From a bacterium (GTDB taxonomy: Bacteria > Blakebacterota > Blakebacteria > Blakebacterales > Blakebacteraceae): a stretch of DNA of 5,008 bases. Within the stretch, counting starts at the first letter, position 1. Each line of letters begins with the position of its first letter. The translations under genes and the position numbers were made by a program. The stretch lies in the NCBI GenBank assembly GCA_025774205.1, contig JALGWK010000236.1, forward strand, positions 1-5,008, given 5' to 3'. Positions 2,801 through 5,008 of this stretch are shown piece after piece. The notes beneath the pieces were generated by a model. The model was not told where the DNA came from, did not search any database, and saw only the letters and a list, made by a program, of their open reading frames with translations.

Positions 2801-3145
2801 TCACACCTCCAGCGGAGCGACGGTGAGAATCCGGTTCACTGCGCCGGTGATTCTCCCCCACTCTTCCATTTCCTGCTTCAGCTGTTTCCGGCCTGCCCGG
2901 GTGATTTTATAGTACTTCGCTCGACGGTTGTTCTCCGTCATATGCCACTCCGAGGTGATCAGGCCTTTCCGTTTCAGACGCTGGAGCGCCGGATAGAGCG
3001 ATCCCTGGTTGATCTGGAATACCCCCTGGGAAATCTGCTCGATACGCAGTGACAATCCCCACCCGTGCATCGGCTCCAGGGCCAGGGTTCTCAGAGCCAG
3101 CATATCAAGAGTGCCGAGCAGCAGTTCCGATTTATCGGTAGACAT
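2801..3145 (-). CDS. PadR-family transcriptional regulator
   Basis: A 114-residue winged-helix DNA-binding repressor of the PadR family, subgroup that accompanies ADOP permeases. Signature stretches are LLLGTLDMLALRTLAL (about residues 8-23), PMHGWGLSLRIEQIS (25-39), the recognition-helix region INQGSLYPALQRLKRKGLI (44-62), and the wing ENNRRAKYYKITRAGRKQL (about 70-88). The C-terminal part would form the dimerisation helix. It probably binds as a dimer to the palindromes just upstream and controls itself and the permease. I chose the ATG at 3145 because homology begins there and CAGGA lies 7 nt upstream. An in-frame ATG at 3202 would add 19 residues with no family resemblance (MKPGSPFVRLKEKPKQDGT), and it lies between the two operator copies. 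The inducing ligand or signal is not evident from the sequence. Confidence 0.93.
   Translation of the reverse strand: MSTDKSELLLGTLDMLALRTLALEPMHGWGLSLRIEQISQGVFQINQGSLYPALQRLKRKGLITSEWHMTENNRRAKYYKITRAGRKQLKQEMEEWGRITGAVNRILTVAPLEV
2806..2810 (-). promoter_or_regulatory. Ribosome binding site of the ADOP permease, inside the padR 3' end
   Basis: GGAGG on the minus strand lies 9 nt before the ATG at 2796. It is embedded in the last codons of padR (Leu-Glu-Val, stop). With only 4 nt between the padR stop and the permease start, translation of the two is likely coupled. Confidence 0.75.
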
Positions 3146-3157: not shown

Positions 3158-3169
3158 TTTCGGTTTTTC

Positions 3170-3186
3170 CTTTAGACGGACAAAAG
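3170..3186. promoter_or_regulatory. Probable padR operator, start-proximal copy
   Basis: The imperfect palindrome CTTTAGACGGACAAAAG has 6 of 8 base pairs symmetric around 3178. It matches a second copy at 3207-3223 in 14 of 17 positions, in the same orientation. Its centre is about 33 bp upstream of the padR ATG, a position where a bound dimer would block transcription. PadR operators in other bacteria are often of the ATGT-n-ACAT kind, which this does not match, so binding by this PadR is inferred from position and symmetry. Confidence 0.6.
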
Positions 3187-3206
3187 GGGAGCCGGGTTTC
3201 ATCTTT

Positions 3207-3223
3207 CTTTCGACGGTCTAAAG
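3207..3223. promoter_or_regulatory. Probable padR operator, distal copy
   Basis: The palindrome CTTTCGACGGTCTAAAG has 7 of 8 base pairs symmetric around 3215. It is the better of the two copies, with its centre 37 bp from the other (about 3.5 helical turns). Together the pair also creates a perfect 12-bp inverted repeat, TTTCCTTTAGAC at 3166-3177 and its complement at 3216-3227. No convincing -35/-10 pair could be placed around it, so the promoter itself remains unassigned. Confidence 0.6.
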
Positions 3224-3309
3224 GAAAGGCCGGCATCAGCTCCACTGAGGCTGTGGATGAGATCGATCGTTCAGGGTGCAGATAATGCCGAACAGTAATC
3301 TACGAACAG

Positions 3310-3348: not shown

Positions 3349-3453
3349 TCAGCCCTTGATGGCCCACCGGATGAAGTGCTTCAGTTTCGGCGGCGTTCCC
3401 TGCAGGAGGATCGCGACCCGGAAGATGCGGCCGCCGATCCAGATCAGGAACAG
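3349..3453 (-). pseudogene. Detached C-terminal end of the ABC-2 permease, out of frame
   Basis: In the frame one base away from the upstream permease frame, these codons read LFLIWIGGRIFRVAILL followed by QGTPPKLKHFIRWAIKG and a TGA at 3349-3351. This is the usual ending of NatB-like ABC-2 permeases: second half of the last helix, then a basic cytoplasmic tail. Upstream of about 3453 this frame is arginine-rich nonsense (for example VHSHARDPEPGERLRDRG), so it is not a separate gene. It is stranded from the main body by an indel near 3451-3456. Confidence 0.8.
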
Positions 3454-4622
3454 GCCGGAACCCCGCCCGGCGTCGCCTGCCTCGCCATCATCAGCAGCGG
3501 CGTGAAGGGGGGGAAGAGAGAAACCCCGGTCGCGAAGCCGCTCTCCGGGTTCTGGATCACGGGCATGAGAATGAACATCGGCAGCATCATCGGCACCATG
3601 GCCGGAAAGGTGATCGACTGCGCTTCGGCCAGATCGTTGCAGGCCGAACCGAGCGCGGCCAGGAGCGCGCCGTACATGAAGATCGAGATGATGACATACG
3701 CGAAGAACCATGGCAGCAGGTGCCAGGGAATGTATTCACCCACTCCCAGCTGGGGTAGACCAATGATCGCGACCAGCACGTAGAATCCGGCTGCCGTCAG
3801 GGAAACGCTCACACCGCCGATCAGCTTGCCCATCATGAAATCGAATGGTTTCACCGAGCCGATGATGACCTCGGCGATCCGCATCGACTTCTCCTCCATG
3901 ACCGCCTGCAGCTGGGGCATGGCTCCCATCATCATCATGAGGAAGAGCAGCATCATCATGATGATCGGGACCAGGATCGCGTCGAGTTCAGAGGTGCGCT
4001 GGGCCCCGCCGATCTCACCGGTCTCGACGTCCTCCGTAACCAGTCCGAGCGCGATCGGGTTCACCCAGTCGAAGAGGTCGCCGAACAATCCCTCATCGAT
4101 CCCGGCTTCGACAACCCGTAATCTCCGGAGGTGGTTGTTGATGGCGTTCCCCAGCCAGTTCCTGACCGGATCGAGAGCGGCGCTTTCCGCGAAATAGGCG
4201 ATGCTGTCGGGTTGCCCGTCGACCCACTGGTGAAGGATCCCCTCGGATATCACCACGAAGCCGTGGAGGTCGTCACTCCGGATCCGATCGGAGAGTTCGA
4301 GACTTAATTCGTCCGGATCCCGGTCACCCGGATCCACGATCTCGATCAGGTGGGCGGGCCGCACCTTCTTGCCGGTCTCCTCCTCATACACGACCGAACC
4401 GTTGTAGGCTTCCGCGGCCTCCAGCACCACATCGTTCACCAGCCCCGAATAGTCAACCACCGCGATCCGTTTATCCCGGGTGTCGACCTTGTCCTCCAGC
4501 AGGGCGAAGGCAAGGCCACTGCCGCTCATGAAAATGGGTGCGACGAGGAGACCGATCACGAAGCCCTTCGTCCTGACCTGCGCCAGGTATTCCCGCTTCG
4601 CGACCTTGAAGGCCTTAGTCAT
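3444..4622 (-). CDS. ABC-2 type transporter permease (NatB-like), C-terminus broken by frameshift
   Basis: Membrane subunit of an ABC-2 exporter, 392 residues in this frame. After a basic start (MTKAFKVAKREYLAQVRTKGF) come helix 1 (about 19-43) and a large extracytoplasmic domain (about 44-214). The remaining helices are at about 216-234, 269-291, 301-324 and 339-357. The hallmark EEKSMRIAEVIIGSVKPFDFMMGK (243-266, the amphipathic coupling region) and the conserved FPPFTPLLMMARQATPGGVPA (370-390) are present. After that the frame ends in Cys-Ser-stop, while the expected last helix and tail continue in another frame to 3349. The start at 4622 is supported by AAGGAGG 6 nt upstream and by homology; an ATG at 4673 adds 17 residues that merely read the neighbour's coding sequence. 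It overlaps the ATPase gene by 8 nt (ATGACTAA), so the two form one exporter. Substrate unknown. As it stands the protein lacks its last helix and is probably non-functional, unless the break is an error. Confidence 0.88.
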   Translation of the reverse strand: MTKAFKVAKREYLAQVRTKGFVIGLLVAPIFMSGSGLAFALLEDKVDTRDKRIAVVDYSGLVNDVVLEAAEAYNGSVVYEEETGKKVRPAHLIEIVDPGDRDPDELSLELSDRIRSDDLHGFVVISEGILHQWVDGQPDSIAYFAESAALDPVRNWLGNAINNHLRRLRVVEAGIDEGLFGDLFDWVNPIALGLVTEDVETGEIGGAQRTSELDAILVPIIMMMLLFLMMMMGAMPQLQAVMEEKSMRIAEVIIGSVKPFDFMMGKLIGGVSVSLTAAGFYVLVAIIGLPQLGVGEYIPWHLLPWFFAYVIISIFMYGALLAALGSACNDLAEAQSITFPAMVPMMLPMFILMPVIQNPESGFATGVSLFPPFTPLLMMARQATPGGVPACS

Positions 4623-5008
4623 GGTCCGCCTCCTTCCGGTCCCCTTCTCCCGGGTCGGTATCACCATCTCCATCTCCGTTTACTCCCTCGGCCGCCGCCA
4701 GAGCCTCCGGGCCGGCGATCCTCACGAAGATGTCATGCAGGGAGGGAGTGGTGAGTTCGAAACTCGTGATCGCGGTTCGCGACATGGCCGCGGAGAGCAC
4801 CTGCTGCGGATCGGCGCCATGGGCCAGGCGCAGTTCCTGCTCACGTCCGAAGTCGGCTATTTTCTCGACTCCCGGCAGATCTTTCAGGACCCGTCCATCC
4901 TCCTCGATACGGATCCGGATGGTGTCGCTCCCGTAATCCTGCTGGATCGAGTTGAGCGTGCCATCGAGTACCATCCGCCCCTTGAAGATCATGAAGATGA
5001 AGTCACAC
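4615..5008 (-). CDS. ABC-2 type transporter ATP-binding protein, C-terminal part (gene continues past the window)
   Basis: The cytoplasmic ATPase subunit of the exporter whose permease follows. About 130 residues are visible, and the frame is still open at 5008, so the first ATG in view (4992) is internal. The fragment opens with CDFIFMIFKGRMVLDGTLNS, the stretch that follows the H-loop in NatA-like ATPases. The Walker A, signature, Walker B and H-loop motifs must lie beyond the edge. Next comes a C-terminal accessory domain of the DUF4162 type (about IQQDYGSDTIRIRIEEDGR to FELTTPSLHDIFVRIAG), whose TPSLHDIFV ending is characteristic. The last roughly 25 residues are an acidic Gly-Asp-Glu-rich tail with no family counterpart that I recognise. 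The TAA at 4617-4615 overlaps the permease start by 8 nt. Confidence 0.9.
   Translation of the reverse strand, partial: CDFIFMIFKGRMVLDGTLNSIQQDYGSDTIRIRIEEDGRVLKDLPGVEKIADFGREQELRLAHGADPQQVLSAAMSRTAITSFELTTPSLHDIFVRIAGPEALAAAEGVNGDGDGDTDPGEGDRKEADHD
4629..4635 (-). promoter_or_regulatory. Strong ribosome binding site of the ABC-2 permease
   Basis: AAGGAGG on the minus strand, 6 nt before the ATG at 4622, lies inside the last codons of the ATPase gene. It is the best Shine-Dalgarno in the window. It decides the permease start and supports coupled translation of the two subunits. Confidence 0.8.
4660..4677 (-). repeat. 6-bp repeat encoding the Gly-Asp tail of the ATPase
   Basis: Three copies of a 6-bp unit (GGAGAT twice, then GGTGAT on the minus strand) encode Gly-Asp-Gly-Asp-Gly-Asp. 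They sit in the acidic C-terminal tail, after the last conserved motif of the accessory domain. This looks like a slippage-grown, disordered extension. Confidence 0.6.

Follow-up and report, generated by a model that had tools for sequence, protein, structure and literature searches.

Organisation of the padR–ADOP locus

The window (the whole stretch of DNA analysed, 5,008 nt) carries, on its minus strand, a padR gene (2801–3145) followed by a gene for an ADOP-family duplicated permease of the MacB/FtsX type (91–2796; TIGR03434, 774 bits against a cut-off of 622.3). The padR product, a putative repressor of its own operon, is 114 residues long and belongs to TIGR03433 (padR_acidobact; 143 bits, above the curated cut-off of 101.8) and to the Pfam PadR family. 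It is a regulator of the PadR-s2 type: a short protein with a winged helix-turn-helix that matches the chains of LmrR and bcPadR1 along most of its length, its C-terminal helix content being predicted from this homology. Two residues, Arg56 and Trp96, are invariant in all 81 PadR homologues compared. The start codon of padR is most likely the ATG at 3145–3143 rather than the mechanical ORF start at 3202, because related proteins begin there. The permease gene begins 4 nt past the padR stop codon, so the two are probably co-transcribed.

Upstream of padR, and on the same strand, lies a gene for an ABC-2 permease (3349–4673), which displays a frameshift near 3444–3480. Its main ORF ends in PGGVPACS, and the usual C-terminus (LIWIGGRIFRVAILLQGTPPKLKHFIRWAIKG) runs on in another frame. 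In the copy from a sister genome, G001, the frame is open across the equivalent region and contains extra residues that are missing from the window. The frameshift could be a true deletion or an assembly error.

Two palindromes upstream of padR

The region between padR and the ABC-2 permease gene contains two 17-bp palindromes, which we call the distal and proximal putative operators. The distal one, CTTTCGACGGTCTAAAG (CTTTAGACCGTCGAAAG on the coding strand), occupies positions 3207–3223, and the proximal one, CTTTAGACGGACAAAAG (CTTTTGTCCGTCTAAAG on the coding strand), positions 3170–3186, ending 24 nt upstream of the padR start codon; both are given on the minus strand. Their centres (3178 and 3215) are 37 bp apart and 14 of the 17 bases are identical, exactly as in the original prediction. 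That each would be symmetric around a central G is true in part: both are palindromic, but the symmetry is imperfect, with six of eight pairs matching in the proximal site and seven of eight in the distal. The perfect 12-bp inverted repeat reported between 3166–3177 and 3216–3227 is present, and a repeat search gives arms of 26 nt at 81%.

The consensus first proposed for the palindromes, with up to three mismatches, occurs twice in the window where 0.12 occurrences are expected, and a looser pattern, CTTTNGNCNGNCNAAAG, is found in the entire 3.09-Mb genome only at these two sites. When the window is scanned with the family matrix described below, whose training set excluded the window's clade, the two palindromes take first and second place (distal, 19.1 bits; proximal, 17.0 bits). 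The next match scores 8.2 bits, and the best score over 60 shuffles of the window is 12.9 bits. The half-sites, CTTT...AAAG, do not fit the canonical PadR operator ATGT-N8-10-ACAT.

None of the four genomes of the window's family, which are the window's own and three relatives (G001–G003) with padR orthologues that are 91, 71 and 71% identical, lacks either palindrome. In G003 the gene upstream is a different one and the palindromes are still there, so they are not just inherited with a conserved neighbourhood. The spacing between them, read from the four sequences, is 37, 37, 35 and 36 bp. Outside the family, matches to the pattern in 98 genomes are scattered and are equalled by a reversed-pattern control; one of them, in G026, falls within an aminotransferase gene and was discarded as an operator. 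No relative was found among viral contigs.

No such site is found upstream of the more distant padR paralogues that the genome carries, and each of them may have its own operator. The regions upstream of two padR paralogues (L030 and L037), of which one belongs to the window's genome and the other to G001, share a different element, CTCTA(C/T)CATTTTAGGG, which suggests that padR paralogues have separate operators. A long G+C-rich repeat with GGCGGCGGCAGTGGTCAG-like units is situated upstream of a distant padR homologue in the window's own genome (L008, contig C150). Elsewhere in the sister genome there is a perfect palindrome of the family type, CTGTAGATTATCTACAG (G001:C320:13584-13600), which may be an operator that serves another padR-like gene.

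The putative operator pair is common to the PadR/ADOP family

We compared 80 padR loci from Acidobacteriota, Gemmatimonadota, Latescibacterota and other phyla. From the 78 loci that lie outside the window's clade we trained a symmetric matrix, which settled on 119 sites; its starting point was a CT[CT]T[AT]GA consensus, so it is not de novo, and shuffled sequences scored by the same matrix served as the control. The half-site reads C (85%), T (78%), C/G/T, T (90%), T/A/C, G (99%), A (79%) and C/T, followed by its mirror image, which gives a family consensus of CTNTNGA. At a threshold of 8 bits, at least one site is found in 69 of the 80 loci and two sites in 54, leaving 26 without a detectable pair, while the three shuffled sets yield only 3–4 loci with a site and none with two. 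The 150 bp in front of padR hold sites of at least 12 bits at 394 times the density of the remainder of the same loci, an enrichment measured on upstream regions that are also the training set. In 72 of the 80 loci padR is followed by an open frame of at least 300 residues, with a median gap of 9 nt.

Judged from these sequences, the palindrome pair is an operator architecture common to the TIGR03433 PadR/ADOP-permease family across several phyla. We define it here as two 17-bp CTNTNGA-N3-TCNANAG sites upstream of padR, and the window's own sites, held out of the training, display it. The conservation of the palindromes upstream of orthologous padR genes, proposed as a check in the original prediction, is thus seen both in the four close genomes and family-wide. 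The half-site does differ from ATGT/ACAT, as claimed, but it is not uncommon: within this PadR subfamily the CTNTNGA type is the norm. The half-site had been given as CTTTNGAC; the conserved core across the family is CTNTNGA instead.

The spacing of the pairs clusters at 30–38 bp with modes at 32–34 bp, or about 3 to 3.25 helical turns. A spacing of 37 bp had been taken to place two dimers on opposite faces of the helix, favouring wrapping or a loop. Since 37 bp lies at the long end of the family range, the family prefers 32–34 bp and the window's clade itself varies between 35 and 37 bp, such an arrangement is not a family feature and finds no support in the comparison.

Relation of the putative operators to the promoter

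The family pairs have a fixed relation to a promoter. This was examined in 52 pairs with a spacing of 26–45 bp, of which 49 are outside the window's clade. In all 49, the best sigma-70 −35 hexamer (TTGACA or one base off) sits at offset 3 of the distal palindrome, and a −10-like hexamer is located between the two sites; by inference, the proximal palindrome falls near the expected transcription start. Occupancy of the sites must therefore interfere with transcription. The operator spacing looks to be set by the geometry of the promoter.

In the window's clade the palindromes persist and TTGACA is lost. The window has TAGACC where the family has TTGACA, and the best sigma-70 promoter that can be drawn in the window matches at 6 of 12 positions and is not credible. 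One other promoter-like match was rejected because it is on the wrong strand.

The four orthologous regions share a different element. The hexamer TGAAAC (3196–3201, minus strand), a candidate ECF-type −35, is located between the operators and is identical in all four, always 17 nt before the CGTC of the candidate −10 element CGTCTAAA (3171–3178, minus strand). The latter is inside the proximal operator and cannot be told apart from the conserved half-site that is part of the operator itself. The distance from TGAAAC to the proximal site is constant and that to the distal site is variable. A 58%-identical paralogue in G001 (L029) carries TGAAAC-N16-CGTA, a match equalled by 77 of 20,000 shuffles. 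We take TGAAAC and CGTCTAAA to resemble the −35 and −10 elements of ECF sigma factors, and 19 ECF-type sigma genes score above the cut-off in the genome. TGAAAC cannot be read as the beginning of a coding region (ATG/GTG AAA), as the frame runs into a stop codon before padR in G001 and G002. In each of the four genomes, TGAAAC-N15-18-CGTCTAA occurs only at the padR locus. A regulon search with TGAAAC-N10-24-CGTC gave many scattered matches with no evident excess at 17 by eye, so that no regulon was found, and the upstream regions of the genome's ECF genes contain one weak match and nothing alike.

The conserved, ECF-promoter-like TGAAAC-N17-CGTCTAAA that overlaps the proximal site is a candidate and a lead. 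One tentative reading, which we hold to be possible and on balance doubtful, is that the window's lineage exchanged its promoter underneath a conserved operator pair: the sigma-70 −35 within the distal operator would have disappeared, and the proximal operator would have come to contain the −10 of a newly arisen ECF-sigma promoter. Such an exchange would place the permease under the control of an alternative sigma factor, perhaps one for envelope stress, and leave the repressor logic unchanged.

Co-variation of the recognition helix and the half-site

Recognition-helix residues co-vary moderately with the half-site. Among 48 non-redundant loci, columns 55, 47 and 49 of the recognition helix (helix 3) are within the top seven covariates of half-site position −6, and the mean z with this position is 2.4 in the helix region and 1.3 elsewhere. 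Relatedness of the loci, which inflates such values, was partly controlled for; the co-variation is still partly phylogenetic, in that the z of the median column likewise exceeds zero (1.3) and the top columns include several outside the helix. CTCT half-sites often pair with helices of the N(P/A)GSLFPA..RLERAG type, and CTTT half-sites mostly with those of the QG(T/S)LYPALQR(M/L)KRKG type. The equivalent Tyr and Arg of the helix have been implicated in DNA contact (PMC3506622), and the counterpart of the invariant Trp has been linked to ligand binding as well as to oligomerisation (PMC3506622, PMC5050560).

Probable autorepression and its alternatives

Observed here are the sites themselves and how they are conserved, the fixed register that they keep with the promoter throughout the family, and the modest co-variation with the helix. 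On this basis the tandem palindromes are very probably the operator of the PadR encoded just downstream, with two dimers blocking the promoter and repressing padR and the ADOP permease. One PadR dimer would bind each 17-bp site, i.e. two CTNTNGA half-sites around three central bases. Together, the two dimers would occupy the promoter, covering the −35 element and the start region, so that RNA polymerase would be blocked sterically, as at the two-site promoter of cdPadR1, and both padR and the co-transcribed permease gene repressed. A ligand binding to the PadR dimer near Trp96 would release the repression. Any cooperativity between the dimers is, like the binding itself, a prediction. The family-wide pair and its fixed promoter register speak for the originally predicted role in autorepression of a padR–permease operon.

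Could the inverted repeat act as RNA instead? As a hairpin in the 5′ leader, it would control translation or termination of padR, and the leader strand can fold over both sites at −25.7 kcal/mol (z of −1.9; 7 of 200 shuffles fold as well). However, two copies of any palindrome are inverted repeats of each other, and neither an Rfam match nor a terminator-like site was found. The −35 hexamer also lies within the distal site in the 49 tested pairs outside the clade, so the distal arm would go untranscribed. A hairpin is highly improbable, which bears out the earlier preference for an operator. Binding of the sites by some regulator other than the window's PadR is only marginally less improbable. 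The sites are tied to PadR by association and the modest co-variation alone, but this type of site accompanies padR from phylum to phylum and is missing upstream of the distant paralogues in the same genome, and to this are added the enrichment directly before padR and the helix residues that co-vary with the half-site.

It is just as improbable that the proximal palindrome together with TGAAAC chiefly forms a promoter for an alternative (ECF) sigma factor, the operator resemblance of the proximal site being secondary. This reading would account for a TGAAAC-N17-CGTCTAAA that is constant in four orthologues while the distance between the palindromes varies, and the L029 variant and the 19 sigma genes agree with it. 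Against it, the proximal site reaches 17–21 bits with the operator matrix of the family in the clade sequences scored, the element is confined to a single locus in each of the four genomes, and the ECF genes examined have no similar promoter.

Comparison with known PadR systems

PadR proteins are known to bind the promoters of their own genes, the classical operator being ATGT-N8-ACAT (PMC4517056, PMC3506622). Among those of the PadR-s2 type, this has been published for LmrR, bcPadR1 and cdPadR1 (PMC3506622, PMC5428041, PMC5050560). In Lactococcus lactis, LmrR is, similar to the window's putative repressor, a PadR-s2 repressor encoded beside a transporter, with autorepression (predicted for the window) and a conserved Trp in the C-terminal helix (PMC5428041, PMC3506622). 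It differs in its ATGT/ACAT half-sites, which are 8–10 bp apart, and in its transporter, LmrCD being an ABC exporter of the heterodimeric kind and ADOP a duplicated permease. Another close parallel is cdPadR1 of Clostridioides difficile, which binds two TACT-N11-12-AGTA repeats in its own promoter, one of them over the −35/−10 region (PMC5050560). The two inverted repeats and the non-ATGT half-site are shared with the window, where binding is predicted. Unlike the window's sites, those of cdPadR1 have an AT-rich core and lie closer together, at 25 and 52 bp before the ORF, and the downstream genes are not those of the window. As PadR autorepression and a two-site PadR promoter with non-ATGT half-sites are already published, the mechanism proposed here is known and ordinary.

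The literature searched, with most subscription papers outside it, contains no description of how TIGR03433/TIGR03434 modules are regulated, and neither the family-wide half-site nor a −35 embedded in the distal operator was found there. Soil bacteria have many of these modules. An operator grammar that they share, in which the −35 is part of one of the palindromes, would allow their regulation to be predicted from sequence, and the variants of the half-site, with the helix residues that match them, are a natural set for working out PadR recognition beyond ATGT/ACAT. The modules of Acidobacteriota and Gemmatimonadota resemble the window in protein families, gene order and operator pair; they mostly have TTGACA in the distal operator and a spacing of 32–34 bp, whereas in the window's clade TTGACA is lost and the sites are 35–37 bp apart.
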